DNA of 56,790 nucleotides from a virus, in IMG/VR virus record IMGVR_UViG_3300046820_001502, positions 1 to 56,790 of that record. One strand, written 5' to 3'. Made by a program: the position numbers and the translations under genes. This document shows positions 4,918 through 52,400 of this stretch, piece after piece (positions within the stretch are counted from its first letter, which is position 1; the number at the start of each line of letters is the position of its first letter). A model generated the notes under the pieces. That model made no database searches. It saw only the letters and a list, made by a program, of their open reading frames with translations, and was not told where the DNA came from.

Positions 4918-4949
4918 GATATTAGGTGATTTTTTTTGTAAATATAGAT

Positions 4950-6749: not shown

Positions 6750-6764
6750 AAATTACTTTATTTA

Positions 6765-6771: not shown

Positions 6772-6774
6772 TTC

Positions 6775-7681: not shown

Positions 7682-7699
7682 AGTTTCTTTTATTATAAA

Positions 7700-7740
7700 A
7701 ATAAAAAAAGACCTATACTAGTAAAGTAAATAGGTCTTTT
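7700..7740 (-). terminator. Rho-independent terminator after the tail tube gene
   Basis: Perfect 11-base inverted repeat, AAAAGACCTAT (7706-7716) with ATAGGTCTTTT (7730-7740) around a 13-base loop. Read on the minus strand the stem is followed by a run of T, and it lies 21 bases past the tail tube stop codon. Confidence 0.75.
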
Positions 7741-7761
7741 ATAATCAAAGTATTTTTTATA

Positions 7762-8250: not shown

Positions 8251-8284
8251 ATCTTAAATTTTCTTTTTTTGTTTTATTTTTATT

Positions 8285-8291
8285 ATAAATA
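8285..8291 (-). promoter_or_regulatory. TATTTAT late-promoter-like element
   Basis: TATTTAT on the coding strand, 34 bases before the tail tube ATG (8250), in a 109-base gap with no other recognisable content. Confidence 0.5.
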
Positions 8292-8359
8292 GTGTGAAAT
8301 AAAATTTTTTCTATTTACTTCAAATTTTTTTCAAGTTATATCTTAACTAGTCCTAGTTT

Positions 8360-28218: not shown

Positions 28219-28232
28219 TAAACCTTTTATCA

Positions 28233-28239
28233 ATAAATA
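28233..28239 (-). promoter_or_regulatory. TATTTAT late-promoter-like element
   Basis: TATTTAT on the coding strand, 14 bases before the ATG at 28218, the same spacing as its paralogue; this supports that start over the upstream TTG. Confidence 0.5.
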
Positions 28240-28245: not shown

Positions 28246-30624
28246 TTAGAATTCTTTTCTTAAATTTCCTTCGTAGAACTCAAACCTATCATGTTCTGTT
28301 GGTGTCATCAAAAGAACTCCGGCATTAATTTTACCTTGTTTCATCTCTTTATAACAGTGAGACATTAAAGTTTGCTCGTAAGGATAAGTGAACTTAGTTT
28401 CGATATAACATTTGTAATTACCTTCTTGTGAAAGAATTATTGGCCAGTTAGACAAATAAACTTCACCTGTCGCATATGGAATACCGTCATAAATTTTTAT
28501 GTTTTTATATTCTAAATAAGGTGCGTTTGGATCTTGTCCGTTTACAGGTAATTTTGGATTGTCAGGCCAATGCTCATCTCTATATGCTTTGTCTACATTA
28601 TACCAAGCCCACTGTTTTTCATGACTACCATAAAACTCAGTAAAGTTGAACTTTAAAAAATCAAAGTTTTCTTTTCTTGTAATTTGTAAAACTTTTTCAT
28701 ATAAATTATTTGTTTTTCTTAAAAACCCATTTCTACAAGATGTTTCAGCTCCACCGTAGAAAAACATATCATCCTCAAAGAAAATATAATAATCCATGTC
28801 AGATTCATTAAAATGTTCGGCAACAAACACTCTACCACCTGTAATACCTATGTTATCTTTTTTAATGTGCTCAAATCCGTATTGTTCACAAAGTTCTAAG
28901 TATCGTGGTGTGGTTGATAGATCTGTTGAGTTATTTAGTAAAAACTTTTTAGTTCTTGTAAGAAAATCATTATCATATAACTCCATAGATCGTATTAGAG
29001 TTTCAAATTGTTTAGGACTATTAAATGTGATTACGTATAAACCAACATCTCCATTCTTTTTGATTTTAATCGGATCTTCTTTTCTAAAACTTTTAATAAC
29101 TACTGAATCATTTTTTACGTCCTCAAAAAACTTATAAAGTAATCCATTTGATTCGATTTCTACATAATCAATATTTTTTGGACTCGTATAAGTCATGATT
29201 GAAAATAAACTTTCTTCAGTACCCATCAAACCTCTGTTAAGTGTTGATTTCATTAGATCATAATACAAAGTATTCATTTCTCTAATCAAAGGTTTTGGTC
29301 CACCAAAAAATCCACCCCTACAAACTTTATTAACTCGTTGACCAACAAGTTCAGTCATAGAATTAATTTCAAAACCGTGGATCTCGTTGTCGGCTTCATA
29401 TGGGAATGCAACAAATGTAAAATTATCAAATAAGTTGTCTATTTTTGGTAATACATTATCGTGAGTAAAGTAACCTATATTAACTGTGTTGGCAATACCG
29501 GCATCTAACCAATATAATTTTTGGGAATTGAATTTGTCTAAAATAACCGCATCGTGCAGTAAAAACATTTTTGACATTACAAGAGGGTTATACATTTCTA
29601 ATTTGGCCTGTGTCGAATCTTTTAACCAACCCGCCAAATTATACCAATCAGGATTTGTTCTAATTTCTTGTATTTTATCGTAAAACTCTCCTTTGAACCA
29701 AGATTGATCTCTTAAAATGAATTGAGTATTTTCATGACTTCTTTTTGTAAATACAAAACTTTCTAATTCTGCATCACCAAAAATTATCATATTACAAGGA
29801 ATGTCTAAGAACTGTAAAAACTTTTCTAAATAATGTTGATACGATCTTGCCCATCCTTCAGTTAACCCATCTCTTTTGATATCCCATAAACCTGTAACTA
29901 ATGTAAGTTTTGAGTCTATTTTTTTTACAACTTCTTTTGGTTCTAAAGTTGCCTTAATTTCATCGTGTACGTCTTTTCTAATCGCATCAATATCCATATT
30001 ACCCAATATCTCATAAAGATAACCAGCCTCTGTTAACTTGTTTGTGATGTTAGTTTTTTCTTCGTCAGTCATATTACACCACTCTAACCGAATTAAACTT
30101 GGTCTAAACTTTCCTAAATCAATTTGTTTAAAGATTGTATAATCGTGTCCTTCAGTATCAACAGATAAAACATCAAAATGATCTATTCCGTGTTTTTGTA
30201 CTAATGTGTCCCAAGTAATACAATTAACCTCAACGTCAACGGCATATTTTTCAACAACTTCTCTATCACCTTCACTACCCATACCATTTTTAGATGGATC
30301 AATTACACTCATACCATAAAAAGCAGGATGAACTAAACCTTCGTCAACAACTTCGATTGGGATTGTTTTCATAGTTATAGTTCCATTAAAATCACTTACC
30401 GCAGAGTTTTCAAATTTGTTGCCAGGGTTATTACTCTTATGATTAACTAATCTCTCAAAATGAGGTTTCATAGGCTCAACATATAAAACATCCGAATTAT
30501 AGATTTGGGCGTATCCACTCATACTATCAAACATAACACCATCCATTGCTCCGATGTTAATCATAAATAATTTTTGGCCCTTTCTACCGTAATAATGTAA
30601 TACCTTATCAAAAAAATCTTCCAT
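28246..30624 (-). CDS. Three-domain enzyme: FkbM methyltransferase + HtrL/YibB-type + glycosyltransferase
   Basis: 792 residues. Residues about 1-210 are an FkbM-type SAM methyltransferase: INIGAMDGVMFD (22-33) for SAM binding and VLSVDTEGHDYTIF, the D-x-E-G-x-[DE] FkbM signature. Residues about 235-500 (LTLVTGLWDIKRDG, YWLDAGIANT, RGGFFGGP) resemble the HtrL/YibB family of putative glycosyltransferases. Residues about 520-792 have VGLYVITFNSPKQFETLIRS and FFEDDMFF (about 615), a GT2-like arrangement with a D-x-D metal site. The product probably transfers and O-methylates sugars. It follows the next HtrL gene by 9 bases and is the last enzyme of the block before an adhesin gene. Acceptors are unknown: phage virion protein or host glycan. 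Confidence 0.7.
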   Translation of the reverse strand: MEDFFDKVLHYYGRKGQKLFMINIGAMDGVMFDSMSGYAQIYNSDVLYVEPMKPHFERLVNHKSNNPGNKFENSAVSDFNGTITMKTIPIEVVDEGLVHPAFYGMSVIDPSKNGMGSEGDREVVEKYAVDVEVNCITWDTLVQKHGIDHFDVLSVDTEGHDYTIFKQIDLGKFRPSLIRLEWCNMTDEEKTNITNKLTEAGYLYEILGNMDIDAIRKDVHDEIKATLEPKEVVKKIDSKLTLVTGLWDIKRDGLTEGWARSYQHYLEKFLQFLDIPCNMIIFGDAELESFVFTKRSHENTQFILRDQSWFKGEFYDKIQEIRTNPDWYNLAGWLKDSTQAKLEMYNPLVMSKMFLLHDAVILDKFNSQKLYWLDAGIANTVNIGYFTHDNVLPKIDNLFDNFTFVAFPYEADNEIHGFEINSMTELVGQRVNKVCRGGFFGGPKPLIREMNTLYYDLMKSTLNRGLMGTEESLFSIMTYTSPKNIDYVEIESNGLLYKFFEDVKNDSVVIKSFRKEDPIKIKKNGDVGLYVITFNSPKQFETLIRSMELYDNDFLTRTKKFLLNNSTDLSTTPRYLELCEQYGFEHIKKDNIGITGGRVFVAEHFNESDMDYYIFFEDDMFFYGGAETSCRNGFLRKTNNLYEKVLQITRKENFDFLKFNFTEFYGSHEKQWAWYNVDKAYRDEHWPDNPKLPVNGQDPNAPYLEYKNIKIYDGIPYATGEVYLSNWPIILSQEGNYKCYIETKFTYPYEQTLMSHCYKEMKQGKINAGVLLMTPTEHDRFEFYEGNLRKEF

Positions 30625-30633
30625 ATCTAATTT

Positions 30634-31521
30634 TTAAATTCCTAATTCCGTCTCAAAAAAATGAACGAAGTGTGTTTTATTTTTAATTGATTCTCTATCG
30701 AAAACCGGAGTTGTGAGCCAAAAGTCTTCATGATACCAAGTATCAAAACTGAATGTTTTAAACATATCAGGATTTTCGAACTCTAAGTTTGTAATCATAC
30801 CTTCGTGATTTAATATATGATTTTCATTTAAACATAAATTACTTATTATATCAAATTCTTGTATGAACCATTTTATTTTTGAAATGTGTCCTCCCAAAAT
30901 ACCACCAACAGACATATGTTTATAATCATTATTATTTTTATAAACTTTTCTAATCTCATTTGGGTTATGTGAAAACATGGTATTTGCCAAGTTGATTAAT
31001 TTATCGCCAACCCAATTATTTATCTTTGGGAATAATTCAGGACAAAATATTTTTGTAAATGAATAGTTTTCCCAATCTCGAGATAAACCAGTAATCTTAT
31101 CGGAGTAAGGATTATATTTTAAGGTAAACAATCCTCTGTGAGATAAACCACAATCAATCCAATAAATGTAGTCATAGGATTCGTCGTATTCTTTTGAAAT
31201 AAGGTATATTTTATTCCAATCAACTTCATGGTAGAAATTAAATTGTTCGTTAGATTTTTTAATCTCTAACATTCTTTCCGTTTTTGGGTAGTCTTTAAGA
31301 TTTGAAATTTTAATCGTTACGTTATTTAAATTAAATTCCTCACAATATTTTTGTAACAAATCAAATTGAGTTTCATTACAATAACATATAATTTCATTAT
31401 TCATGTTATTTAATGTCCTTAAAGAATGTAAGTATCTTTCTTGTCTTGCAAATGACTCGTGACCAAAAAAAGGAAACCCAATAATATCGGTATAAAAGGC
31501 GGTTACTAGCTTTGTCTTCAT
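30634..31521 (-). CDS. HtrL/YibB-family putative glycosyltransferase
   Basis: 295 residues, starting KLVTAFYTDIIGFPFFGHES, then DYIYWIDCGLSHRG (about 137-150; the W-x-D-x-G site of the family) and HMSVGGILGG (about 201-210), corresponding to the GGFFGG block in the composite neighbour. This matches the WlaTC/HtrL family found in lipopolysaccharide and capsule clusters, presumed to be a nucleotide-sugar transferase with a GT-A fold. The donor cannot be told from sequence. Its ATG overlaps the carbamoyltransferase stop by 4 bases, indicating translational coupling, and 9 bases separate it from the three-domain enzyme, whose middle segment is a paralogue. Confidence 0.7.
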   Translation of the reverse strand: MKTKLVTAFYTDIIGFPFFGHESFARQERYLHSLRTLNNMNNEIICYCNETQFDLLQKYCEEFNLNNVTIKISNLKDYPKTERMLEIKKSNEQFNFYHEVDWNKIYLISKEYDESYDYIYWIDCGLSHRGLFTLKYNPYSDKITGLSRDWENYSFTKIFCPELFPKINNWVGDKLINLANTMFSHNPNEIRKVYKNNNDYKHMSVGGILGGHISKIKWFIQEFDIISNLCLNENHILNHEGMITNLEFENPDMFKTFSFDTWYHEDFWLTTPVFDRESIKNKTHFVHFFETELGI

Positions 31522-33095
31522 ATTCTTTTTCTAAAATAGTAATCACCTAATAAAAGACAATCCATTTCTGTTTTATCGTAAACCGAAATCGCATCACTAT
31601 ATCGAGAAAGTATTGGTTTTCCATTAACGTTGAACGATGTATTTAATAATACCCCTATACCTGATTGTTTCTCAAACTCAGTTAATAAATTGTATAACCA
31701 AGGGTTTTGTTCTTCAGTTACGGTTTGTACTCTTGCTGTACCATCTACGTGTGTAATTGAAACTAATTTTTCTCTCCACTCTTCTTTTACAGTAGGACAA
31801 AATCCCATCCACTTACTTTCACCCTCAAAATTAAAATATTTAGATACGTCTTCTAATTTACATACAGGGGCAAAAGGTCTATACCACTCTCTGTTTTTTA
31901 CTTTAGCATTTAATATATCTTTCATGTTATCATAAGCAGGATTACAAATAATACTTCTATTCCCTAAAGCTCTCGGACCATGTTCTGCATTACCTCTGAC
32001 AACACCAACAATTCTTCCATCTACTAAATCCTTAACTAACATTTCTGTCTCTAAAGGTAAAGCGTGTCTTTCCTCAACATGAGACATTAATGTATGTTTA
32101 TCTAAAATTGGAATACCTGCGTATGTAATGTCGATAGCCTTTTCAGGTTTAATATGATTTAACATCATTCCTGTTGCAATTCCACAATCATTTGGATTGG
32201 GTGGTACAAAAACTGGTCTATCAAGTTCTTGGTGTAACTTTGTGTTTAACAATATGTTTAATGCACAACCACCAACAAGTATTAAAGGTATATTTGGGTA
32301 TTGATCTAAAAATGGTATAGTTAACTCCATAAACACATTCTCAAATGCAATCTGAGAAGTTTTAGCAACATCCCAACCTATTTGACCCGTTAATCTATTT
32401 TCAAAATCAAAAGAAAGACCTGTTTGTTCTGCCAACTCATTTAAATAACCTAAGTAATTATTTCCGTCAGGTTTTTTTCTATAGTATTCTTCGAAGTGTG
32501 GCAACCAATCTTCATTAACATTACCATAAGAACAAAGTCCCATAATTTTTCCTGAGTAAACTAAATTACCAATATTAAGTGCCGGTTCTTTTGTAATATC
32601 ACCCAAGTAATCACCAAATGACATATATGGAAACCCTAAATCAGTATTAAATTTTTCAATAAGGTTTATGTTATTTCTGTCTTCCGCATGATACACATTA
32701 AAGAATCCATCATTACCTCCTCCATCAAATGAAATAATTAAAGCTTCGTTATAATCTGTTTGGTATAAACCACAAGCAGCATGGCTTAAATGGTGTAGTG
32801 AATTAATATATTCTTTTGCCGGTATTAACTCTTGATAATGAACCTTTGTTGTGTGTTCGATTGTATCCGCATTTAAGTAATAACATTTATCATATTCTGA
32901 AATTCCATATTCATCTTTAATAAATTGTAAAATATGTTTTAACAAAAAGGGTCTTGAGTATGAAATTAAATATTGTGCGTAACCTGCGTTTTTTTGGGTA
33001 AGAAATCTTTCGACTTCTATTACCACAATAATTTTTCCTTGATCCTCAACAACAACCGCAGAATTGTGAGATCCGTAAAATGAAATGTTTGCCAT
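31518..33095 (-). CDS. Carbamoyltransferase (NodU/CmcH family)
   Basis: 525 residues. The N-terminal Kae1-like domain shows HHLSHAACGLY (101-111) and ISFDGGGNDG (121-130), and in the middle LVGGCALNILLN, the metal/nucleotide pocket of this family. The C-terminal YrdC-like-to-transfer part has EHGPRALGNRSI, RPFAPV and FNVNGKPI. Members such as NodU, CmcH and TobZ use carbamoyl phosphate and ATP to place a carbamoyl group on a sugar or antibiotic hydroxyl. In this block it likely decorates a glycan made by the neighbouring transferases. It is 10 bases downstream of the GT60-like gene and overlaps the next by 4. No late-type TATTTAT precedes it. Confidence 0.9.
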   Translation of the reverse strand: MANISFYGSHNSAVVVEDQGKIIVVIEVERFLTQKNAGYAQYLISYSRPFLLKHILQFIKDEYGISEYDKCYYLNADTIEHTTKVHYQELIPAKEYINSLHHLSHAACGLYQTDYNEALIISFDGGGNDGFFNVYHAEDRNNINLIEKFNTDLGFPYMSFGDYLGDITKEPALNIGNLVYSGKIMGLCSYGNVNEDWLPHFEEYYRKKPDGNNYLGYLNELAEQTGLSFDFENRLTGQIGWDVAKTSQIAFENVFMELTIPFLDQYPNIPLILVGGCALNILLNTKLHQELDRPVFVPPNPNDCGIATGMMLNHIKPEKAIDITYAGIPILDKHTLMSHVEERHALPLETEMLVKDLVDGRIVGVVRGNAEHGPRALGNRSIICNPAYDNMKDILNAKVKNREWYRPFAPVCKLEDVSKYFNFEGESKWMGFCPTVKEEWREKLVSITHVDGTARVQTVTEEQNPWLYNLLTEFEKQSGIGVLLNTSFNVNGKPILSRYSDAISVYDKTEMDCLLLGDYYFRKRI

Positions 33096-33105: not shown

Positions 33106-34350
33106 TTATAAATTTCCTGTTATTCTATCACACCAACCTTTAGATGTTGAGTAAGGCCAAACAACCCAATATTTAGGTTTTTTAGTTGTATTGAATTCTC
33201 TCCATACTTTACAGTATCCATCAGGATCTCTAAAGAAACCGTTTATTTCATTAATATCTGCATCTCTTCTATATAAAGTTTCATCATTTTCATCGTGAAA
33301 AGCAACTACCCAATATTCATAATCTTTTTCAGGAACACTCACATAATTTACGTCTATACAGTGTTTGAAGATTGTTGAAAATGATTTCTTCCATTCCTCT
33401 TCTGTCTCGAAGTTATAGGTGTTTGGTGGATATTTTTTGTCAATTGTCTCTTGTTGGATTCCTCTTGACTCAAACAAAACACCAGCATATTTTTCATAGT
33501 CACTTACGGTTCTTTCAGTTCCAAACCATAAAGAATAATCTCCATCAAATTTTTCACCGTCAACTCCTAAAAGTTGTCTGTTTTTAATATGACAAGCTGT
33601 GTTTCTTAAATGCCAATCTTTGTCATCGTCCCACTGTTTAGTTCTACCTTTTCTTGTGTATTCGTGCCAAATTAAAACTTTGTGTGGATGGAATAAATCA
33701 TAACCATATGTATAAGCTCTTACTGAAATTGAAATTTCTTCTCCGTGAAAATAAAATTCAGGATCATGTTGAACTTCAGTTGAAAATTCACCTAAAGTAA
33801 AACAATAATGTGCTGAGTAAAATCTTGCAGGAACAGGTTGTTTCATTTCTTGCCAACCTGGAATTGATTCAGGCAAGAAGAATACAACACCTTCAGGTGT
33901 AAATCTATCAAATGCCATTCTCCATGGTTCTCTAACACGACCTTCAGGATCATTATCAGGATCAAATGATGAAACATATCCTGTTAAAAGAGGTTTTTTA
34001 TGTCCTTTCTTTTGAAGTTGTTTAATCATTTTAATCATTTCATCATCCCAATTCTTTTCGAATCTCATGTGAGAATCGATTTGAAGAGTATACTCCTCAC
34101 CACCATACAGTTGTTGGACTTGATGTCTTGCCCAACAAACCCCTTTTGATTCTGTGTAAGGAATATTTAGGATTCTAAATCTTTTATCTTTTTCATACTT
34201 AGATAAATCATCAAAACCATCTTCAGGATGGAATTGTCTTGCAACACCAATAATTACATTTTTTGGTCTTTTTGCGTTTTCCAACATATTTTCTATTGTT
34301 GGTATTAGTTGAGGGTCGCGATACGCAGCGATTTGTACAAATATTTTCAT
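33106..34350 (-). CDS. GT60-type (GlcNAc) glycosyltransferase acting on polypeptides
   Basis: 414 residues. It starts KIFVQIAAYRDPQLIPTIEN, then GVCWARHQVQQLYGGEEYTL and QIDSHMRF (D92-S-H94, the D-x-H/D-x-D-like metal site), followed by FYSAHYCFTLGEF and YFHGEEISISVRAYTYGYD. These are the marks of the GlcNAc (PF11397) family, whose characterised eukaryotic members are Dictyostelium Skp1 hydroxyproline GlcNAc transferase and Trypanosoma mucin Thr-GlcNAc transferases (CAZy GT60). The family assignment is confident from motifs; the phage acceptor is inferred. Because the phage also encodes many Thr-rich linkers, its own adhesins are plausible substrates. The gene follows the 100-residue small protein gene by 37 bases. 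Confidence 0.8.
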   Translation of the reverse strand: MKIFVQIAAYRDPQLIPTIENMLENAKRPKNVIIGVARQFHPEDGFDDLSKYEKDKRFRILNIPYTESKGVCWARHQVQQLYGGEEYTLQIDSHMRFEKNWDDEMIKMIKQLQKKGHKKPLLTGYVSSFDPDNDPEGRVREPWRMAFDRFTPEGVVFFLPESIPGWQEMKQPVPARFYSAHYCFTLGEFSTEVQHDPEFYFHGEEISISVRAYTYGYDLFHPHKVLIWHEYTRKGRTKQWDDDKDWHLRNTACHIKNRQLLGVDGEKFDGDYSLWFGTERTVSDYEKYAGVLFESRGIQQETIDKKYPPNTYNFETEEEWKKSFSTIFKHCIDVNYVSVPEKDYEYWVVAFHDENDETLYRRDADINEINGFFRDPDGYCKVWREFNTTKKPKYWVVWPYSTSKGWCDRITGNL

Positions 34351-35749: not shown

Positions 35750-36676
35750 CTACACTATTTCCAATACTTTGTTATAAACCGCAAATATTGTTGGGTGACA
35801 CTCAAATGTTTCTTTTCTTTCTAAACAATTAACTAAAGATGGGATGCCTTGTATTGATCCCCACTCTCTAACACCATATTTTATGTTGGAAGCGCAATTA
35901 AGACCACAACCACCAACAACATAATGGTATTTGTATTGTTGCGATCCTCGTCTAAATGGTGATCTAAACTCAGGATTTATAGAGCTACCTAATTGAATTA
36001 TTTCAGCATCTGTTGTTCCTGCCAAATGTAGTAAACCAGAATCCATGGTTATGAAACACATACTATTGTGAATTAAATGCCAAGCCTGATCCATATCCGT
36101 GTTGTTCATTAAATTTAAACCTAAGTTGATTGGAAAATTAAAAACAGGTTTATCAACATTAGATCCGCCAAGTTCTGAAGAATCTTTACCAATTGACACA
36201 ACCGCAATTCCTTTTTGATTTAAAAGTTTCGTTAACATTTGCCAATTTTTTGCATCCCAAGTTCTTGAGTTCCAATTTTGAACAGGATGTATTAAAACGT
36301 ATTTTTCAGGTAGACCCTCTATTTTTTCAATTGATTTTGGTATGTAATCCATCCCCATCTCATCTTTGGTTAACATAAACCCAAGATTGATTGCATGAAA
36401 TTGTCTAATATCCATGGCGTTATGTTTATAACAAACCCCATTTGGGTGATATCCAACATTAAATGAAACAAAGACTTCATGTGTTTCTTTTAATTCATCT
36501 GTAACTTCAGTAAAGATTTGATCAACACAAGGATTATTAGAAAATAAATATGGGTGGTGTGTTGCGACAGATATTTTTTTACCGTAAGAATAGTAAAGTT
36601 TTCTTAAAGTTGGTGTAACTGCTAAGGTATCACCTAACGCTCTACAACCTAATACATCAATACAAACATTTTTCAT
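35750..36676 (-). CDS. Heptosyltransferase-like glycosyltransferase (GT9 fold)
   Basis: 308 residues with a GT-B arrangement typical of GT9: LGCRALGDTLAVTPTLRKLY near the start (G-D-x-[LI] motif), HPVQNWNSRTWDAKNWQML (about 145-163; the H/S-x-x-x-x-x-[KR]-x-W donor region) and ITMDSGLLHLAGTT (about 214-227; D-S-G-x-x-H). The C-terminus carries GGCGLNCASN and later VNCLERKETFEC; a four-Cys arrangement like the iron site of TibC-type protein heptosyltransferases is possible, though spacing differs. It would move a heptose or similar sugar from a nucleotide donor. It is the first enzyme of the minus-strand block and is divergent from the 974-residue composite, which also holds a GT9-like domain. 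Confidence 0.8.
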   Translation of the reverse strand: MKNVCIDVLGCRALGDTLAVTPTLRKLYYSYGKKISVATHHPYLFSNNPCVDQIFTEVTDELKETHEVFVSFNVGYHPNGVCYKHNAMDIRQFHAINLGFMLTKDEMGMDYIPKSIEKIEGLPEKYVLIHPVQNWNSRTWDAKNWQMLTKLLNQKGIAVVSIGKDSSELGGSNVDKPVFNFPINLGLNLMNNTDMDQAWHLIHNSMCFITMDSGLLHLAGTTDAEIIQLGSSINPEFRSPFRRGSQQYKYHYVVGGCGLNCASNIKYGVREWGSIQGIPSLVNCLERKETFECHPTIFAVYNKVLEIV

Positions 36677-36742: not shown

Positions 36743-39667
36743 ATGAAAAAGATTAAATTATTGTATTTAACACCTCATCTATCAACAGGTGGGATGCCAC
36801 AATTTGTTTTAAAACGAATTCAAGAACTCCAAAAATTTAAAGACAAGATTGAAATATTTTTAGTTGAGTATTCTCAATTCAGTTCAACTTACGTTGTTCA
36901 AAGAAATGAGATCATTAAATTATTAGGTGAAAACCATTTTTTTAGTTTAGGAGACACTACTGATGTAGATAGAAAATATCAACTAATGGATATTATTAAA
37001 AATAATGATATTGATATTATACATTCAGAGGAGATGATGGAAGGTTTTGAAAGTTTTAATAAAATCCCATTACCGTTATTAAATCAAATTTATTCTAATG
37101 ATAGAACTTGGAGAATTGTTGAGACTTGTCATAATATTTGGTTTAACCCACAAACACATAAAAAGTTTAATCCTGACGCATATTCGTTTGTAACACCATA
37201 CCATTTAGAAGAAACATTCTCTAATGAGAAACCGATGAAATTTTTATCACTATATCCGATTGAAGATAAAGTTTCTGAAATTTTAAAGGAGTGTGAGATT
37301 TATGGGGACTTTAATCAAGTACCTTTAATTAAAAAAATACAAATAAGAAATGAACTTGGTTTGGATATGTTTAAAACTCATGTTTTAAATGTTGGGTTAT
37401 GGACAAGTGGTAAAAATCAAGGTGAGGGTGTGAATGTTGCAAAAGAGTTAATCGAATCAAACCCTGATATTGAATTTCATTTTATTGGAAACCAAGCTCC
37501 GAACTTTGAGGATTATTGGGGACCGATCATGAATGACTTACCATCAAATGTAAAAGTTTGGGGTGAAAGAAATGATGTTGATAAGTTCATGCAAGCATGC
37601 GATGTATTGATGTTTAATTCAACTTGGGAATGTAATCCATTAGTTATCCGACAATCAATTGGATATGGAATGAAAATCCTATCAAGAAATCTACCACAAT
37701 ACATGGGTATGTTTGACGGATACATCACTCCGATTGAAGGGGATGTCAAAAATATATCAAAACAATTGGTCAGTCTTATTGAAAGTAATGGGGTTTACTC
37801 GATATTACCTGATGATAAATTTGGTGAAGATTTATTATCGATGTATAAAATTGTAATGAACGAGAATACCACAGAAAACAAACCACTAACCAAAGATTAT
37901 ACTTTTATTAAACATTATGTAACCCAACCTTATTTTGAGGTACAAGGGACTACTCAAAACAAATTAAACATTAAATATTTTGATGAAAACAATAATGTGG
38001 TTTATCAAAATGAATTACCTATCAATAGTTGGGTAAAACTAAATAAAGAATATTTTATTAAGTGGAGAACTACGGTTGAGGAAAACGGTCAAGTCATATA
38101 TGATGAAACCTTAAACTTAAAAGATAAAAGAGTTTATATTTCATTTGGATCTAAGTCTTTGGGTGATACGATGGCTTGGGTTCCTTATTGTGAAGAGTTT
38201 AGAAAAAAACACAACTGTAAACTAATCGTTTCTACATTCCTTAATGGGTTATTTAAAGATCAATATCCTGAAATAGAATTTATTGAGCCAGGTGAGGTTG
38301 TACCAAACATTCACGCACAATACAGATTAGGTTGGTATTACGACGATAAAGGTGAATTTGATAGAAACAAACACCCACACGACTTTAGAAAAATGCCGTT
38401 ACAAAAAACAGCATCTGATATTTTAGGATTAGAATATACTGAAATCAGACCAAAGTTAAAATTACCTAACACACCAAAAAAGAAAAAAGTTGGTATCGGT
38501 ATTCACTCAACAGCACAATCTAAGTATTGGAACAACTCAACAGGTTGGCAAGAAGTAGTTGATTATTTGAGATCATTTGGTTATGAGTGTATGATTTATT
38601 CCAAAGAAAATGATGGGTATATGGGTAACCATCACCCAAATGGTGTAACCAAATTTGTTGGTGGGACATTACAAGATGTAATTGATGATCTATCAACTTG
38701 TGAATTTTTTATTGGTTTAGGATCAGGTTTATCTTGGTTAGCTTGGGCATGTGAACTACCTGTTGTTTTAATTTCAGGGTTTAGTGAGAAATGGGCGGAA
38801 ACAAAATTAGACACATATAGAGTTATAAATGAAAATGTTTGTCACGGATGTTTTAATTCGGAAAGATTAGACGCTGGTGATTGGAATTGGTGTCCTTTAC
38901 ATAAAAACACAGATCGGATGTTTGAATGTACAAAACAAATAAATTCCGATATGGTTATAAATGAAATAAAAAAAATTATGAATAATACTAAAGAAGTTAC
39001 GCAAAGTAAGTTAGAAGGATTTGATTGGGGTGGAAAAGATAATTGGTATAGTGATGCCGCAATACAAGAAATTGAAAATGATAATATGTACGATAGATTT
39101 TTTACCGTTGAGGAAGGTGATATTGTTGTGGATTTAGGAGCGTCAATGGGCCCATTTACCTATTCTATTTTACCAAATAGCCCTAAACAATGTTATGTTG
39201 TTGAACCATTATCTTATCAAGTTGATGTGTTACATAAAAATGTTGGGGGAGATAATGTGAAAATTATTCGAGGAGCAATTACCGATAAAAAGAAAATTGA
39301 GATTACTTGGGATGGTATAACTGAAATTGCACCAACATTTACCTTTAAAGAGTTTTTGGATGAAAATAATATTGATAAAATTGATTTTTTAAAATGTGAT
39401 TGTGAAGGTGGTGAGTACGACGTATTCCAACCAAGTAATATTGAGTTTTTAAAAACCATACCAAAAATTGTGACTGAATTCCACATGAGAGTTGATGAGA
39501 ATTTTCATAACTGTAAGTTCAGATGGTTTAGAGATAATATACTACCACAATTTAATAACTACCAAGTTTTTTCTGTGGATGGTGTTGACATCAAATGGGA
39601 TTTATGGAATGACCACTTTTTAGAATACTATTGTGAAGTAATCATTTATATTGACAATAGAAAATAA
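36743..39667 (+). CDS. Composite protein glycosyltransferase: GT4 + TibC-like O-heptosyltransferase + FkbM methyltransferase
   Basis: 974 residues. Residues 1-370 are GT4-like: STGGMPQFVLKRIQEL for donor-domain start, then NVGLWTSGKNQGEG and NSTWECNPLVIRQSIGYGMK. Residues about 460-740 resemble bacterial autotransporter O-heptosyltransferases such as TibC/AAH: SFGSKSLGDTMAWVPY, IHSTAQSKYWNN, GLGSGLSWLAWA, and four Cys in VCHGCFN...DWNWCP...MFEC (C700, C703, C717, C729; C-x2-C-x13-C-x11-C), like the iron-binding site of TibC. Residues about 770-974 are an FkbM methyltransferase (VVDLGASMG and KCDCEGGEYDVF). TibC-type enzymes put heptose on Ser of adhesin repeats, so a protein acceptor is likely. 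It is divergent from the GT9 gene and faces the collagen fibre with a shared terminator. Confidence 0.75.
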   Translation: MKKIKLLYLTPHLSTGGMPQFVLKRIQELQKFKDKIEIFLVEYSQFSSTYVVQRNEIIKLLGENHFFSLGDTTDVDRKYQLMDIIKNNDIDIIHSEEMMEGFESFNKIPLPLLNQIYSNDRTWRIVETCHNIWFNPQTHKKFNPDAYSFVTPYHLEETFSNEKPMKFLSLYPIEDKVSEILKECEIYGDFNQVPLIKKIQIRNELGLDMFKTHVLNVGLWTSGKNQGEGVNVAKELIESNPDIEFHFIGNQAPNFEDYWGPIMNDLPSNVKVWGERNDVDKFMQACDVLMFNSTWECNPLVIRQSIGYGMKILSRNLPQYMGMFDGYITPIEGDVKNISKQLVSLIESNGVYSILPDDKFGEDLLSMYKIVMNENTTENKPLTKDYTFIKHYVTQPYFEVQGTTQNKLNIKYFDENNNVVYQNELPINSWVKLNKEYFIKWRTTVEENGQVIYDETLNLKDKRVYISFGSKSLGDTMAWVPYCEEFRKKHNCKLIVSTFLNGLFKDQYPEIEFIEPGEVVPNIHAQYRLGWYYDDKGEFDRNKHPHDFRKMPLQKTASDILGLEYTEIRPKLKLPNTPKKKKVGIGIHSTAQSKYWNNSTGWQEVVDYLRSFGYECMIYSKENDGYMGNHHPNGVTKFVGGTLQDVIDDLSTCEFFIGLGSGLSWLAWACELPVVLISGFSEKWAETKLDTYRVINENVCHGCFNSERLDAGDWNWCPLHKNTDRMFECTKQINSDMVINEIKKIMNNTKEVTQSKLEGFDWGGKDNWYSDAAIQEIENDNMYDRFFTVEEGDIVVDLGASMGPFTYSILPNSPKQCYVVEPLSYQVDVLHKNVGGDNVKIIRGAITDKKKIEITWDGITEIAPTFTFKEFLDENNIDKIDFLKCDCEGGEYDVFQPSNIEFLKTIPKIVTEFHMRVDENFHNCKFRWFRDNILPQFNNYQVFSVDGVDIKWDLWNDHFLEYYCEVIIYIDNRK

Positions 39668-39691
39668 TTTAAGATTTAAATAAGTTAAATT

Positions 39692-39725
39692 AAAAACCCC
39701 CATCTTTTCAGGTAGGGGTTTTTTT
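39692..39725. terminator. Bidirectional terminator between convergent genes
   Basis: AAAAACCCC (39692-39700) pairs with GGGGTTTTT (39715-39723) around a 14-base loop, in the 56-base gap between the composite transferase and the giant fibre. It has T runs on both strands and overlaps the fibre's stop region. Confidence 0.75.
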
Positions 39726-41000
39726 ATGCTGGACAAGCGTGTGCCGCAATACAAGTCGTACAGTCACTATATTGTGCGGTTATTGTTCCTACTGATACGG
39801 TTGCGGGCCCAGTACTAGATGAAACAAAGTCAAAACATACACCAGTAAGAGGATCATAAAATCCACTGAATCCCATACCACCTTGAGCTAATACAACTTG
39901 GTTAGTGTTTAAACAACAGTTATAAACTTCGTAATAATTACAAGGGTTGGATTCTAAACACTTTTCACAAGTATCATAAGGAGTATCAGTGTAAAAATTA
40001 CTTGTTGGTGTATCTGTCGTTATTGACACACAAACATAACAGTTATCACTTATTACTTCAAGATAACTTAATCCAATTGTAAATACTCCATATGCGACTT
40101 GTGTTACGCCAGTTTCACAACAAGCCGAGAATAAATAATAGTCAGGACAGCCACCAACATCTAAACGACATTGTGTACAATCATCAAATTGTTTGGAGTT
40201 ATAAATTGGTACTGGCCAACTTACAGTACCCGTTAAGTCCCAAGAAGTAACTTCCCAACAAACACCATTTGTGTCTGTAAATATAGTCCCTGTTTGTGGG
40301 ACAAACGCTTGAGTTGCATATACCTCAACTTGTAAAGGGTTACAACAATTTCTTATTGTAACATAAACAACTTCAGGACAAGGATTTGCTGTTTTACAAG
40401 CTTCACATCCACCAAAATATTGGCTAGCTAAAGATATACTATAATTTGTTGGTAATTGATTTACTTGTGTATTAATTACCCAACAAAAACCATTTGTGTC
40501 TATCCAAATTTCTCCAATAGATACAGTTCCGGCTGGTATTGATATGATTTCTTGAGGTAAAACCTTACAACATGAATTAATAAACCAAAACTCAGGACAC
40601 TCATTTGTGGTAATACAGTCATCACAATTTGTGTATCCCGTTGTTCCAATTGTAATTGTTGGTGCTGTTACAGGTGCCCCGGTTCCAGATGTAACATTCC
40701 AACACAATCCATTATCATCAACAAAAGTATCACCAACTACTAAATCTAACGAACCTGTAACATATTCAAGTCCAGTAACACAACAACTATCAATTACCGC
40801 ATTATCAGGACAAGGGTTACTTGATATACAAGAAGAACAACTTGCGTAATTGGTCACTAATGTTCTAATACTATTTGGTGCTGCAAGTGTAGTACTTTCT
40901 ATTTCCCAACAGTTATCTTGAGCATCACTCCAAAATGTTCCTATCGTTAAACTACTACCAACAATAATTTCAGTTACAGTTGGTTCACAACAGTTTCTTA
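39724..41000 (-). repeat. Six Cys-rich modules at the fibre tip
   Basis: Six units of about 65-75 residues, each [NSA]-C-C, then about 25 residues, G-x-C-[WYF], then about 25 residues, C-x2-C-x5-C-[PN]. Units are diverged (for example NCCEPTV..., SCCVTGL..., ACCETGV...). Disulphides or metal sites are likely; I do not recognise the module. Confidence 0.8.
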
Positions 41001-44000
41001 ACACATAAAATTCACCATCAGGAATTGTACAATCTTTTTCATAATTTAAGGTATATGTAAATCGTGGTTCTTGTGTAGGAGTATCAGCATCTTGAACAAT
41101 ATTAAAACCAACAACATAGAATATGTCACACGCATTATAATATTGTGTAAATGTATGTGAAACATCAAAACATAAATAGTTTGATGTCATATTGAAATAT
41201 GCTGGAGATATTACAGTTGTTAAAGGAATTAAATCTCCTAAATCATTACATTGATATAAATAAAGTGCCACAACAAAAGATGGTTGGTACGAAGATAGGT
41301 TAATCTTCCACCATACATTACCACAAAGTCTTATACTATCTCCAGCTCTAACATTAACTGGTGATGGAACACCTAAAAAGGCTGTATCACCTCTAAGGGG
41401 GTTCGCACTAAATCTTATAGGAACTCCTATATCCCAAGGACAACCATTCCAACCACATTCGGAACTACCCATCCAAAGAAAATTTGTGTTTGTGTCTGGC
41501 TGTGGGGTTAGTTTAAATTTACCCGAATTTGACGCTATTAATGTATTATCTATGTTACAACTTCCACCTCCACCAGTACAAGTTAATGTTACATTTACAG
41601 ATCCACTTGTTCCTGAGGTTGCGGTTATACAAGTTCCGATAAAATTAATACTTGTTGCACTTGATTGAACTAAATTTCCTTCGTCGAATATAGAAATTGC
41701 ACCTCCTCCGCCGCCACTTGTACCTGAAGATCCGTTTGTACCATTTGTTCCCGAAGTTCCAGGTGATCCTGTTGCCCCATTTGTTCCGTTTGTTCCTGAC
41801 GTACCATTTGTTCCGTTAGTTCCTGAAGTTCCCGGTGATCCTGTCGCCCCATTTGTTCCGTTTGTTCCTGACGTACCATTTGTTCCGTTAGTACCTGAAG
41901 TTCCCGGTGATCCTGTCGCCCCATTAGTTCCGTTTGTTCCCGAAGTCCCATTTGTTCCATTCGTACCTGAAGTTCCCGGTGATCCTGTCGCCCCATTAGT
42001 TCCGTTTGTTCCCGAAGTCCCATTTGTTCCATTCGTACCTGAAGTTCCCGGTGATCCTGTTGCCCCATTTGTACCATTAGTTCCTGAAGTACCATTTGTA
42101 CCATTAGTTCCTGAAGTTCCCGGTGATCCTGTAGCCCCATTTGTACCATTAGTTCCTGAAGTACCATTTGTACCATTAGTTCCTGAAGTACCAGGTGATC
42201 CTGTCGCCCCATTTGTTCCGTTTGTTCCTGACGTTCCATTTGTACCATTAGTTCCGTTTGTTCCATTAGTACCCGAAGTCCCATTAGTTCCATTCGTTCC
42301 TGAAGTCCCATTAGTCCCGTTAGTTCCATTTGTTCCTGACGTACCCCTTGTTCCTGACGTTCCATTAGTTCCGCTAGTACCATTTGTTCCATTTGTTCCT
42401 GATGTACCGTTCGTTCCTGAAGTTCCATTTGTTCCGTTAGTTCCATTGGTTCCCGAAGTTCCGTTTGTACCGTTGGTACCAGAAGTCCCATTTGTTCCAT
42501 TAGTTCCATTTGTTCCGCTAGTACCATTCGTACCGCTTGTCCCATTCGTACCATTCGTTCCTGATGTTCCATTTGTTCCGTTGGTCCCGTTAGTACCTGA
42601 CGTTCCATTTGTACCACTAGTACCATTAGTTCCGTTAGTTCCGCTAGTACCATTAGTACCGCTCGAACCATTTGTTCCATTTGTTCCTGAAGTACCATTT
42701 GTTCCATTAGTACCCGATGTTCCGTTGGTACCGCTAGTTCCGTTAGTTCCATTAGTCCCTGACGTACCGTTGGTTCCTGAAGTTCCATTAGTTCCATTTG
42801 TACCACTTGTTCCATTTGTACCATTAGTTCCTGAAGTTCCGTTTGTTCCATTTGTACCATTTGTCCCGTTGGTCCCTGAAGTCCCGTTAGTACCTGAAGT
42901 ACCATTCGTTCCTGACGTACCGTTTGTTCCATTAGTACCTGATGATCCGTTTGTACCGTTAGTACCTGAAGTTCCATTTGTCCCGCTAGTTCCGTTAGTA
43001 CCATTAGTTCCTGATGTACCATTAGTTCCGTTTGTCCCTGAAGTACCATTAGTGCCTGATGTTCCGTTTGTTCCATTTGTCCCGCTAGTTCCGTTTGTAC
43101 CATTGGTTCCGTTTGTTCCGCTAGTCCCGTTAGTACCGTTGGTACCACTTGAACCATTTGTTCCATTAGTTCCCGACGTACCGTTTGTACCTGAGGTTCC
43201 GTTAGTACCATTCGTACCGCTAGTGCCATTTGTTCCATTCGTACCGCTAGTTCCATTTGTACCATTAGTTCCCGAAGTTCCATTGGTACCTGATGTTCCG
43301 TTAGTCCCATTAGTACCACTAGTTCCATTCGTACCGTTTGTTCCGCTAGTACCGTTGGTTCCACTTGAACCATTTGTTCCATTCGTCCCTGAAGTGCCGT
43401 TTGTCCCATTTGTTCCATTTGTTCCCGAAGATCCGTTTGTTCCGTTAGTACCTGATGTTCCATTGGTTCCGTTAGTTCCATTCGTCCCTGATGTACCATT
43501 TGTTCCTGATGATCCGTTTGTACCGTTAGTACCTGATGTTCCATTAGTTCCCGAAGTCCCATTTGTACCGTTGGTACCACTTGAGCCATTAGTTCCGTTC
43601 GTTCCGCTCGTACCGTTTGTTCCTGACGTTCCATTTGTACCATTCGTTCCATTTGTACCATTTGTTCCTGAAGTTCCATTGGTTCCCGAAGTTCCGTTGG
43701 TTCCATTCGTACCTGAAGTTCCATTAGTACCATTTGTTCCGTTAGTTCCTGAAGTTCCGTTAGTTCCGCTCGTACCATTTGTTCCATTAGTTCCATTAGT
43801 ACCGTTGGTTCCTGAAGTCCCATTTGTTCCTGAAGTTCCGTTGGTTCCACTAGTACCATTTGTACCGCTCGTACCATTAGTACCCGATGTTCCATTAGTT
43901 CCGTTTGTTCCATTAGTTCCGTTTGTTCCCGATGTACCATTAGTACCACTTGTACCATTCGTTCCATTAGTTCCTGAAGTACCATTAGTTCCCGATGTCC

Positions 44001-47000
44001 CATTTGTCCCATTCGTACCTGATGTTCCATTTGTGCCGTTAGTTCCGTTTGTACCGCTAGTACCATTTGTACCATTTGTTCCTGAAGTTCCATTGGTTCC
44101 GTTAGTTCCTGAAGTTCCATTTGTACCTGACGTTCCATTGGTACCATTTGTTCCTGAAGTACCATTCGTACCTGATGTTCCATTAGTCCCATTAGTACCT
44201 GAAGTTCCGTTGGTACCATTTGTTCCTGAAGTACCATTTGTTCCGTTTGTACCTGAAGTACCGTTGGTTCCGTTAGTACCACTTGTACCATTCGTACCTG
44301 ATGTTCCGTTAGTTCCATTTGTACCGCTAGTACCATTAGTACCATTTGTTCCTGATGTGCCGTTAGTCCCAGAAGTTCCATTGGTTCCACTTGTTCCGTT
44401 AGTACCATTCGTTCCTGACGATCCATTGGTTCCATTGGTACCTGATGTTCCATTAGTCCCACTTGTTCCATTTGTACCATTTGTTCCTGAAGTACCATTA
44501 GTTCCGCTAGTTCCGTTTGTACCATTTGTTCCGCTAGTTCCATTTGTTCCGTTCGTACCGCTAGTACCATTTGTACCTGAAGTTCCGTTCGTACCATTTG
44601 TTCCTGATGTTCCATTCGTACCTGAAGTTCCATTTGTCCCATTCGTACCACTAGTACCATTAGTTCCATTTGTACCGTTAGTTCCGTTTGTTCCTGATGT
44701 CCCATTTGTTCCGTTGGTTCCTGATGTTCCATTAGTACCTGAAGTTCCATTTGTGCCGTTAGTTCCGTTTGTACCGCTAGTTCCATTGGTTCCGTTAGTT
44801 CCTGAAGTTCCATTTGTACCTGACGTTCCATTGGTACCATTTGTTCCTGAAGTACCATTCGTACCTGATGTTCCATTAGTCCCATTAGTACCTGAAGTTC
44901 CGTTGGTACCATTTGTTCCTGAAGTACCATTTGTTCCGTTTGTACCTGAAGTCCCGTTTGTCCCACTTGTTCCGTTGGTTCCATTCGTTCCATTAGTCCC
45001 ACTTGTTCCGTTGGTTCCATTCGTTCCGCTAGTTCCATTAGTCCCATTTGTTCCGTTAGTCCCATTCGTTCCGCTAGTTCCATTCGTTCCTGACGTTCCA
45101 TTCGTACCGTTGGTACCACTTGAACCATTTGTTCCGTTAGTACCCGAAGTTCCGTTTGTACCATTCGTCCCTGAAGTACCATTTGTTCCGCTTGTACCGT
45201 TAGTCCCATTAGTTCCACTAGTACCATTTGTTCCGTTTGTTCCACTAGTTCCGTTAGTACCTGAAGTACCGTTGGTTCCATTTGTACCGCTAGTACCGTT
45301 TGTTCCATTTGTTCCTGAGGTTCCATTCGTACCGCTAGTACCATTAGTACCATTTGTTCCCGAAGTACCATTTGTACCATTCGTACCTGAGGTTCCGTTT
45401 GTTCCGCTAGTTCCATTTGTTCCATTAGTACCGCTAGTCCCGTTAGTTCCATTTGTTCCTGAAGTTCCATTAGTACCCGAAGTACCATTCGTACCATTAG
45501 TTCCTGACGTACCATTAGTACCGTTGGTTCCATTCGTACCATTCGTACCATTTGTACCACTAGTCCCATTTGTTCCTGATGTTCCATTCGTACCACTAGT
45601 TCCGTTAGTTCCATTTGTACCTGAAGTACCATTAGTGCCGTTTGTACCAGATGTTCCATTCGTTCCGCTAGTACCATTTGTTCCGTTTGTCCCTGACGTT
45701 CCATTAGTTCCGTTCGTTCCATTCGTTCCGTTGGTTCCCGAAGTTCCATTGGTTCCATTTGTACCACTTGTACCGTTAGTACCATTAGTTCCGTTTGTTC
45801 CATTTGTACCACTTGTACCGTTAGTACCATTAGTTCCTGATGTTCCGTTAGTCCCATTAGTACCCGATGTACCATTTGTTCCGCTAGTTCCGTTGGTTCC
45901 ATTAGTACCATTCGTACCATTAGTTCCGCTAGTACCATTTGTACCGTTAGTTCCTGATGTTCCGTTTGTCCCTGAAGTACCGTTAGTACCGTTGGTTCCC
46001 GAAGTTCCATTCGTTCCGTTTGTACCTGAAGTTCCATTTGTACCATTTGTCCCCGATGTACCATTAGTACCTGAAGATCCGTTCGTACCATTCGTTCCGC
46101 TAGTTCCATTAGTACCATTCGTTCCACTAGTACCATTTGTTCCAGACGTACCATTTGTTCCATTAGTACCGCTAGTTCCGTTCGTACCATTTGTTCCATT
46201 AGTACCGTTAGTACCTGATGTTCCGTTTGTTCCATTCGTACCTGATGTTCCATTGGTTCCATTTGTTCCTGACGTACCGTTCGTACCGCTAGTACCGTTT
46301 GTTCCATTTGTTCCTGACGTTCCATTAGTTCCATTAGTTCCGTTAGTACCGTTTGTTCCCGATGTCCCATTCGTACCGCTAGTACCATTAGTTCCGTTAG
46401 TACCGTTTGTACCTGAGGTTCCGTTGGTTCCATTAGTTCCGTTGGTACCATTTGTTCCGCTAGTTCCATTCGTTCCTGACGTACCGTTTGTTCCTGATGT
46501 GCCGTTAGTTCCGTTAGTTCCGTTAGTACCGTTTGTTCCCGATGTTCCGTTAGTACCGTTTGTTCCCGATGTTCCGTTCGTTCCTGAAGTTCCATTTGTA
46601 CCGTTGGTACCGTTAGTTCCGCTTGAACCATTTGTTCCATTTGTTCCTGACGTACCGTTTGTTCCATTAGTACCGCTAGTACCATTTGTTCCCGATGTTC
46701 CATTAGTACCGTTGGTTCCTGATGATCCGTTTGTACCATTTGTCCCACTAGTGCCATTTGTGCCTGAAGTTCCATTCGTTCCATTGGTACCGTTAGTTCC
46801 TGATGTTCCGTTTGTTCCATTCGTACCTGAGGTTCCGTTGGTACCATTTGTTCCGTTTGTACCATTTGTACCCGATGTCCCATTGGTTCCGTTCGTTCCG
46901 CTAGTTCCATTGGTTCCGTTTGTTCCCGATGTTCCGTTGGTACCATTTGTTCCATTAGTTCCGTTCGTACCGCTAGTTCCGTTGGTACCATTTGTTCCAT

Positions 47001-49420: not shown

Positions 49421-52400
49421 TTAGAATACAATTCTTGTAGCGACTAAGATGTCCCAAGTACCTCCAGTAATTGTTGCAATTAAATCAACAATACCTGCGG
49501 TTACTTGGACATTCCATTTAAGATTCGCGGTAGAACCATTCAAATCAGGTGATGACACATCAGTAAATGCGGCCCCCGCATTATCCCAAGTTGCATATAC
49601 TTGACCAACTCTTTTTTGACCTGCATTTCCTGTAATACAATATTCGAAGAACGCAGCACATCCAAAATCAGATCTAAATCTATCGATAGTGGTTGTTGTA
49701 GTTATACCTGTTGCGGTTTTAGTATTAACTTTATCGTAACTTCTATTTAGAGTTAATATACCGTCAGTTCCATTATATGTGAAATTAGTTTCTGCAACTA
49801 TTCCTCCCGAGCCGTCAGATGTTAGTATTTCATTATCCGAACCTGGTACTACAGGTGATGATCCGCTTGTACCATCAGTACCTGAAGTTCCATTTGTCCC
49901 TGACGTTCCATTAGTTCCGCTAGTACCATTTGTTCCTGACGTTCCGTTTGTTCCTGAAGTCCCATCTGTTCCATTAGTTCCTGAAGTCCCATCTGTTCCA
50001 TTAGTTCCTGAAGTACCGTTTGTTCCGTTAGTACCCGATGTCCCATCAGTACCTGAAGTTCCGTTAGTTCCATTTGTTCCCGAAGTCCCGTTAGTACCAT
50101 TCGTACCATTCGTACCATTCGTACCACTAGTACCATTAGTTCCGCTAGTACCATCAGTTCCATTAGTTCCTGATGTACCATTCGTACCATTAGTTCCATT
50201 TGTTCCTGAAGTACCGTTGGTTCCATTTGTTCCTGATGTACCATTAGTACCATTTGTTCCTGAAGTCCCATTAGTACCATCCGTACCATTCGTACCATTA
50301 GTTCCGCTTGTTCCGTTAGTTCCGTTAGTCCCATTTGTCCCCGAAGTACCATCAGTCCCGTTAGTACCTGATGTTCCGTTTGTACCATTTGTGCCTGAAG
50401 TTCCGTTGGTTCCATTAGTACCTGATGTTCCATCTGTTCCGTTAGTTCCATTAGTCCCCGAAGTTCCATCTGTTCCGTTAGTACCTGAAGTACCGTTGGT
50501 TCCGTTAGTACCTGAAGTACCATCTGTCCCATTAGTTCCGTTAGTCCCATTTGTACCAGAAGTCCCATCTGTTCCTGATGTTCCGTTAGTTCCATTTGTA
50601 CCGCTAGATCCATCTGTTCCGTTGGTTCCACTTGTACCATTAGTACCTGAAGTACCATTTACACCTGATATCCCACTAGTACCATCTGTCCCTGAAGTGC
50701 CGTTAGTTCCGCTAGTTCCATCTGTACCATTTGTACCATCGGTTCCTGAAGAGCCATTTGTCCCATCGGTTCCTGAAGAGCCATTTGTCCCATCGGTTCC
50801 TGAAGTTCCATTTGTCCCATCGGTTCCTGAAGTCCCATCTGTTCCGTCAACACCTGAAATACCACTTGTCCCATCTGTACCTGAAGTACCGTCTGTTCCA
50901 TTAGTCCCATCTGTTCCGCTTGAACCATTTGTTCCGTCAGTTCCACTTGTTCCATCTGTTCCATTTGTTCCTGAAGTCCCATCTGTTCCGTTTGTACCTG
51001 AGGTTCCATCTGTTCCATTTGTTCCTGAAGTCCCATCTGTTCCGTTTGTCCCCGAAGTACCATCTGTTCCGCTAGTACCATCAGTTCCATTCGTACCATT
51101 TGTTCCGCTAGTACCATCAGTTCCTGAACTTCCATCCGTACCATTTGTTCCGCTAGTACCATCAGTTCCATTCGTACCATTAGTTCCACTTGTTCCATTC
51201 GTACCACTTGATCCGTCTGTTCCATTAGTTCCCGAAGTTCCATCTGTTCCATTAGTTCCCGAAGTTCCGTCCGTTCCGTTTGTACCGCTTGAACCGTTTG
51301 TACCGCTTGAACCATTTGTTCCTGAAGTCCCATCTGTTCCATTTGTACCTGAAGTTCCATCCGTACCACTTGATCCATTTGTACCATCAGTTCCATCAGT
51401 CCCATTAGTACCTGAAGTTCCATCAGTCCCGTTTGTTCCACTAGTACCATCAGTACCCGAAGTACCATTTGTTCCGTCCGTACCGCTAGTACCATCAGTT
51501 CCATTTGTTCCACTAGTACCGTCTGTTCCATTTGTCCCTGAAGATCCATTTGTCCCATCTGTACCGCTAGTTCCATTTGTCCCATCTGTACCGCTAGTTC
51601 CGTCAGTACCATTAGTACCTGAAGTTCCATCTGTACCATCAGTTCCATTTGTACCACTAGTACCACTAGTACCATCTGTTCCATTTGTACCTGAAGTACC
51701 ATCTGTTCCATTTGTACCTGAAGTTCCATCTGTTCCACTTGAACCATCTGTACCATTCGTCCCACTAGTCCCATCAGTCCCTGAAGTCCCATCTGTCCCG
51801 TTAGTTCCGCTTGAACCATCTGTTCCGTCTGTCCCATTTGTACCCGAAGTACCATCTGTTCCGCTAGTTCCATCTGTACCATTAGTTCCGTCTGTACCTG
51901 AAGTACCATCTGTTCCATTTGTACCGTCAGTACCTGAGGTTCCATCTGTACCATTAGTTCCTGATGTACCATTAGTTCCTGATGTTCCGTTAGTACCATC
52001 TGTACCTGAAGTCCCATCTGTTCCATTTGTTCCGCTAGTCCCATCTGTTCCATTTGTTCCGCTAGTCCCATCTGTTCCATTTGTTCCGCTAGTTCCATCT
52101 GTACCATTTGTTCCGCTAGTTCCATCTGTACCATTTGTACCGTCAGTACCATTTGTTCCTGAAGTTCCGTCTGTTCCATCTGTTCCTGAAGTTCCATCTG
52201 TTCCATCTGTTCCTGAAGTTCCGTCTGTACCATTTGTACCCGAAGTCCCATCAGTACCATTTGTTCCATTTGTTCCATCTGTACCATTAGTTCCTGAAGT
52301 TCCGTCCGTACCACTAGTACCATCAGATCCATCTGTTCCGTTTGTACCACTTGAACCGTCAGTTCCATTAGTTCCCGACGTACCATTTGTTCCGTTAGTT

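Follow-up and report, generated by a model that had tools for sequence, protein, structure and literature searches.

The window, which is the whole 56,790-nucleotide stretch of DNA analyzed here, derives from a freshwater phage and represents an incomplete virus record (56.8 kb) that includes tail sheath and DNA polymerase genes. It encodes a protein in which a GT4-type glycosyltransferase, a TibC-type O-heptosyltransferase and an FkbM-type methyltransferase domain follow one another (Table 1). The two outer domains, which the first-pass annotation of the sequence had already placed upstream and downstream of the middle one in a single polypeptide, are borne out by profile matches over the respective cut-offs: the GT4 part barely exceeds the Pfam threshold (PF13692, Glyco_trans_1_4, 28.6 bits; cut-off 27), its counterparts in relatives are well over it (PF00534, 52.8 bits in locus L007), and BshA/MshA-like GT4 structures are among the Foldseek matches of the full-length model, while the FkbM part is matched by both PF05050 (2e-10, 41.4 bits; cut-off 22.7) and TIGR01444 (46.8 bits; cut-off 37.7). 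Since the fusion is kept across many independent viral contigs, including L001 to L008, it is real and conserved rather than an assembly artefact.

On one side of the fusion gene lies an island of putative glycan-modification genes. The standalone GT9-type gene adjoins the fusion in most near relatives, and its product, judged by its sequence, is possibly a reduced cousin of TibC; it carries a C-terminal Cys group of its own (CGLNC...NC...FEC). Relatives of the PF11397 family attach GlcNAc to Ser/Thr or hydroxyproline of proteins, and the presence of such a gene here fits a protein-glycosylation island. The FkbM and HtrL_YibB fusion has a relative in L001 that lacks the FkbM part. Adhesin-like ORFs, ConA-like or Thr-rich, are found in the island at 34737-35720 and 26656-28233.

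On the other side, 57 bp separate the fusion gene from a gene for a giant collagen-like protein, which is followed by a second collagen-like gene (Pfam Collagen, 4e-167). The enzyme and fiber genes converge across a terminator-like hairpin and are therefore neighbors rather than members of one operon. The C-terminal part of the larger protein contains about seven Cys-rich repeats (..CC..NPCP..) after the collagen-like stretch. The possibility that GTN-GT serves as an N-x-T sequon for N-glycosylation was set aside, as no N-glycosylation enzyme was noticed.

Table 1. Genes, domains and residues at the locus (window coordinates)
Feature	Position	Strand	Basis
Rest of island: FkbM + HtrL fusion, further ORF, carbamoyltransferase	28246..33095	-	Profile matches
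FkbM + HtrL_YibB fusion, 792 aa, second multi-domain glycan enzyme	28246-30624	-	
PF11397 GlcNAc-transferase-like protein	33106..34350	-	PF11397 8e-69, phrog_24687
Standalone GT9-type transferase	35750..36676	-	PF01075 5e-14, weak TIGR04414 (33.6 bits), synteny
GT4 / TibC-type / FkbM fusion, 974 aa, ATG start	36743..39667	+	ORF, profile matches
GT4-type GT-B glycosyltransferase domain, aa 1-380	36743..37882	+	Pfam PF13692 / PF00534
TibC-type O-heptosyltransferase domain, aa 386-748	37898..38986	+	TIGR04414, model
Asp475, equivalent of TibC catalytic base Asp110	38165..38167	+	Alignments
Thr590 and Lys594, equivalents of TibC Thr226/Lys230 (beta-phosphate)	38510..38524	+	Alignment
Tyr626-Met627, equivalents of TibC thumb tip Phe265/Val266	38618..38623	+	Alignments
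Val646, replacing TibC Arg286 (adenine N1 contact)	38678..38680	+	Alignment
Iron-finger motif Cys700, 703, 717, 729	38840..38929	+	Alignment to TibC Cys339/342/358/370
FkbM-type methyltransferase domain, aa 760-974	39020..39664	+	PF05050, TIGR01444
Terminator-like hairpin + T-run, AAAACCCCCATC...GTAGGGGTTTTTTT	39686..39727	.	Seen directly; between convergent enzyme and fiber genes
Collagen-like protein, 3192 aa, proposed acceptor	39724..49302	-	677 G-X-Y triplets: GTN 435, GTS 207, GSS 17
Collagen-like protein, 1371 aa, second candidate acceptor	49421..53536	-	392 triplets (GTN, GTD, GTS, GSS)

Assignment of the middle domain to the TibC family

The TibC likeness of the middle domain, proposed in the first-pass annotation, was confirmed by profile, sequence and structure comparisons, and the family assignment is secure. 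The TIGR04414 profile (hepto_Aah_TibC) matches aa 408-745 with 297.3 bits against a cut-off of 200, and the only strong PDB matches of the fusion are the TibC entries 4rap and 4rb4 (E about 1e-72; phmmer, 3.5e-72 for 4rap), the domain being about 37% identical to TibC. An AlphaFold2 model of the domain, built from 26 sequences of the window and the related loci, reached a pLDDT of 92 and a pTM of 0.90, while the full-length model (pLDDT 76, pTM 0.49) is too weak for placing the three domains relative to one another. The comparison that the annotation had suggested, AlphaFold and Foldseek against TibC, returned only TibC chains at the top ranks (TM 0.87/0.84, E 1e-37); VIA-align superimposed the model on 4rap over 355 residues with a Z of 39.7 and an rmsd of 2.6, and both the N-terminal barrel and the GT-B core of the TibC fold are present. 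LPS heptosyltransferases and a GT9 gave Z values of 18 to 20. As the TibC score lies far above those of the LPS enzymes, the contrary case named in the annotation, a better match to lipid-sugar transferases, did not hold, and a lipid-acceptor heptosyltransferase (WaaC/WaaF, Z 18-19) was rejected as the closest kin.

The residues tell the same story as the fold, and computation shows that the catalytic residues of TibC are in place. In TibC, Asp110 is the catalytic base, Thr226 and Lys230 hold the beta-phosphate, Trp305 contacts the heptose, and Cys339/342/358/370 are the iron ligands (PMC4358343); all of these are kept almost throughout our 80-sequence alignment. The annotation had likened the C-x2-C-x13-C-x11-C pattern and its DWNWCP element, which holds the third Cys, to the TibC iron site, and the four residues indeed align one to one with the TibC ligands and are invariant in two alignments (A1 and A4). 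The tip of the TibC thumb, used in ring assembly (PMC4358343), is replaced by Tyr-Met in nearly all members of the subfamily to which the phage enzyme belongs and stays hydrophobic; the thumb is deleted in some phage members (L009, L010, L011 and L012). TibC forms a dodecameric ring through its thumb and iron finger. Because the finger and the hydrophobic tip are kept, a TibC-like ring is predicted as likely also for the phage enzyme.

A divergent subfamily of TibC-type enzymes

Relatives are encoded in at least 591 viral stretches of the database. Arg286, the adenine contact of TibC, is a strongly conserved residue of the family. In the 80-sequence alignment, residue 286 is Arg in TibC and in seven classical bacterial members; in the phage and methanotroph members it is Val, Ile, Leu, Met, Thr or Ala, with the exception of one phage (L118) and of L139, an archaeal MAG gene without the Cys finger. 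Pro300 of TibC, which sets heptose stereoselectivity (PMC4358343), is also replaced. A maximum likelihood tree of 55 domains separates the classical members by a long branch (length 1.19, support 100/99) and joins the methanotroph/Polaromonas group into one clade (100/100) that adjoins phage sequences. By sequence, then, the phage enzyme belongs to a new, divergent subfamily apart from the classical TibC enzymes that modify autotransporters; since its neighbor at 57 bp is collagen-like and no autotransporter, we regard it as a relative within the family that stands outside the autotransporter-modifying class. The first-pass annotation contained neither this division between classical and divergent enzymes, nor the loss of the Arg associated with ADP specificity, nor the adjoining likely substrate.

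Two kinds of atypical member were observed. The TibC-type domain of L139 (997-3348), from a MAG labelled Pacearchaeota, has Arg286 and lacks the four Cys; it lies among transferase genes and a cytidylyltransferase gene and may be phage or misbinned. Two loci (L011:1100-4275 and L048:9280-11576) each carry a tandem pair of TibC-type genes, one of which lacks the N-terminal barrel.

Collagen-like neighbors in phages and bacteria

A collagen-like gene adjoins the fusion also in L001, L002, L004, L006, L009 and L048, as well as in the isolated Microcystis phage Mel-JY01 (L050; relative at CDS 4750-8430 of PP395634) and many of L051-L130, and Pfam collagen matches occur in 27 of 30 enzyme-bearing records. 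Among the 11 whole or nearly whole records, which represent different clades, the enzyme lies less than 4 kb from a G-X-Y ORF in 10 (combined rank p of about 1e-6); of the 20-kb tiles, 7 of 11 with the enzyme hold S/T-type G-X-Y ORFs, versus 6 of 82 without it. The triplets in the phages are mostly GTS and GSS, plus GTN in the close kin of the window, and GTS is common to the phage and the bacterial partner proteins described below. Among viral loci at least 11 kb long, roughly one in two has no S/T-rich G-X-Y ORF, though the records are fragments, and one clade (L094-L104, L106) has no G-X-Y gene in reach, its TibC-type gene lying within a long run of transferase genes. In a control set of viral loci with FkbM only, S/T-rich G-X-Y ORFs were present in 8 of 34. 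Such ORFs are thus fairly common in these phages, so that proximity in phages carries little weight by itself and the bacterial loci weigh more; fiber and glycosyltransferase genes may cluster in phages for general reasons.

The bacterial members of the subfamily are located outside phage regions. One of them, from Methylomicrobium (L135), is a single-domain enzyme that has a GTS protein as its companion. When 301 Methylobacter-order genomes and 399 genomes from the Polaromonas family were scanned, matches over the cut-off formed two score groups, of 616-663 and 303-327 bits. Divergent-class genes have a small secreted (GTS/GTA/GTT)n protein as their immediate neighbor in nine of ten Pseudomonadota loci (the exception being L150), versus none of seven classical-class loci (Fisher, 4e-4), at least four of which show, by eye, AIDA-like strand-loop-strand repeats beside the gene. 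With their repeats masked, the partner proteins fall into at least two families that show no detectable similarity to one another (L147/148/149/152/154 and L146/151/153), and one further protein (L171) consists almost entirely of repeat; as the non-repeat parts are unrelated in sequence, it is the repeat that the partners have in common. Strict Gly-Thr-[Ser/Thr-like] runs, searched as a DNA pattern, occur in 15 of the 301 Methylobacter-order genomes, namely in seven of nine with the divergent enzyme and eight of 292 without it (Fisher, 5e-9, a value that ignores kinship and, the genomes being related, overstates the case). Of these seven genomes, five have the run next to the gene for the enzyme; in G165 and G166, the runs listed lie elsewhere.

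These neighborhoods, conserved in bacteria and phages, lead us to favor the view that the fusion probably O-heptosylates the Gly-Thr/Ser-Ser repeats on the phage's own collagen-like fibers and also extends and methylates the glycan. The TibC-type domain would transfer manno-heptose from a nucleotide-heptose to the hydroxyl side chains of the repeats in the giant fiber proteins; extension by another sugar would fall to the GT4 domain and capping with an O-methyl group to the FkbM domain, roles that are deduced from family membership and from the fusion itself. A single polypeptide could thereby dot the fiber with numerous copies of a short methylated glycan, and a proline-poor fiber glycosylated in this manner would be expected to gain in stiffness, solubility and protease resistance; any influence on fiber stability or adsorption is speculation. 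Substrate, donor base and glycan are all predictions from genomic context, and several observations count against the proposal: the fiber in the window is composed mainly of GTN with GTS second, while Ser and not Thr was found to be modified by TibC (PMC4358343); Arg286 is lost; the window has no heptose genes; and many viral loci have no S/T-rich G-X-Y ORF.

Two other acceptors were considered: (i) the enzyme may act on the infected host, modifying its surface polysaccharide, its LPS core or one of its surface proteins, for instance to block superinfection, its proximity to fiber genes reflecting an accessory region; many phages have glycosyltransferases that alter host receptors, and the carbamoyltransferase, GT9 and HtrL-type domains of the island are typical of polysaccharide loci, but in fold and sequence the domain most resembles TibC, which modifies protein, and stands well apart from heptosyltransferases with lipid acceptors, and the bacterial members sit beside secreted GTS-repeat proteins, which makes this explanation distinctly unlikely; and (ii) protein O-glycosylation may be directed at another virion protein, such as the ConA-like or Thr-rich ORFs, rather than at the collagen-like repeat, as suggested by the presence of several adhesin-like ORFs in the island and by subfamily members without a nearby G-X-Y gene; we judge this very unlikely, considering that phage and bacterial neighbors have the G-[T/S]-S repeat in common and that no ConA-like ORF was noticed at the loci in bacteria.

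Comparison with known systems

The phage enzyme shares with TibC and AAH (BAHT; TIGR04414; PDB 4rap, 4rb4) the N-terminal barrel, the catalytic Asp, the phosphate and heptose contacts, the four-Cys iron finger and a thumb with a hydrophobic tip, as well as a highly repetitive, Ser/Thr-rich secreted or structural protein as its neighbor. It differs from them in its separate long-branch clade with Arg286 and Pro300 replaced, in being phage encoded and fused to GT4 and FkbM domains, and in its partner, where a G-[T/S]-S collagen-like repeat takes the place of the autotransporter. Glycosylated collagen-like proteins of the Bacillus BclA type likewise have Thr-rich G-X-Y repeats, and transferase and methyltransferase genes lie close to theirs; their glycans are rhamnose based and displayed on the spore surface, and the transferases are unlike the phage enzyme.

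Viral parallels exist for the architecture and for the acceptor. A064R of the chlorovirus PBCV-1 combines two sugar-transferase domains with a C-terminal methyltransferase and decorates a virion protein with a methylated glycan that is thereby capped (PMC9614988), the same GT-GT-methyltransferase layout in one viral protein, although the transferase families are unrelated, the sugar is rhamnose, and an N-glycan on an algal-virus capsid is what the enzyme extends. By analogy with this precedent, it is plausible, as the first-pass annotation suggested, that the fusion would serve as a one-protein assembly line for a protein-linked methylated glycan. In Mimivirus, the viral enzyme L230 glycosylates a collagen-like protein of the virus that is poor in proline (PMC9614988), the pairing of viral enzyme and acceptor that we propose for the phage; it belongs to other enzyme families, however, and uses other chemistry (Lys hydroxylation and glucose). 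Searches of the open-licence literature for phages together with O-heptosyltransferases, or for heptosyltransferases together with collagen-like proteins, returned nothing relevant.

Our results put forward the Gly-Thr/Ser-Ser repeat as a candidate for a substrate class that is new to the TibC family. If the proposal is true, the reach of an enzyme of adhesin glycosylation includes phage virions and, in the collagen-like triplet repeat, an acceptor of a quite different kind; dense O-glycosylation would be a purpose of the widespread G-[T/S]-S repeat proteins; and the nucleotide-heptose enzymes reported in viruses, whose role a 2024 commentary lists as unsolved (PMC11573728), would gain one purpose. 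The proposal predicts an encoded enzyme-substrate pair in methanotrophs and phages and a change of donor recognition at one residue.

The sugar donor

Heptose genes are absent from the 57-kb window. In two other phage clades (L079-L084 and L119-L127), split HldC-like and HldA-like genes follow the TibC-type gene within 1 kb; they match TIGR02199 (heptose-1-P nucleotidyltransferase, 100 bits) and TIGR02198 (heptose-7-P kinase, 117-122 bits), which are under the equivalog cut-offs yet the best matches. These operons support a manno-heptose donor in the two clades, and it is from them that the heptose donor of the phage fusion is predicted.

The loss of Arg286 means that ADP-heptose cannot be assumed to be the donor. 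A non-heptose sugar or another nucleotide donor, compatible with either kind of acceptor, would account for the replacement of this residue in nearly all members, given that Arg286 of TibC contacts adenine N1 and that the Ala mutant retains little or no activity (PMC4358343); moreover, some heptose nucleotidyltransferases produce CDP- and UDP-heptose and carry a promiscuity motif, (F/L)XXGRSTT (PMC11573728). We nevertheless consider this unlikely, for Lys230 and Trp305, the heptose O5/O4 contacts, are kept, the kinase and nucleotidyltransferase genes stand in the operons of two phage clades, and the operon nucleotidyltransferases read STTK without the promiscuity motif. The switch to CDP- or UDP-heptose suggested by the loss of Arg286 is consequently unsupported.

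A broader reading gathers these observations: a second class of TibC-type enzymes, in hundreds of phages and some bacterial chromosomes, would heptosylate Gly-Thr/Ser-Ser collagen-like repeats, coating virion fibers in the phages, some of which would have their own heptose supply, and would read the donor nucleotide in a changed manner with the loss of Arg286; we hold the chances for and against it to be evenly balanced. Split heptose kinase and nucleotidyltransferase genes were also observed by TibC-type genes at L232:8531-9665 and L256:5160-6300.
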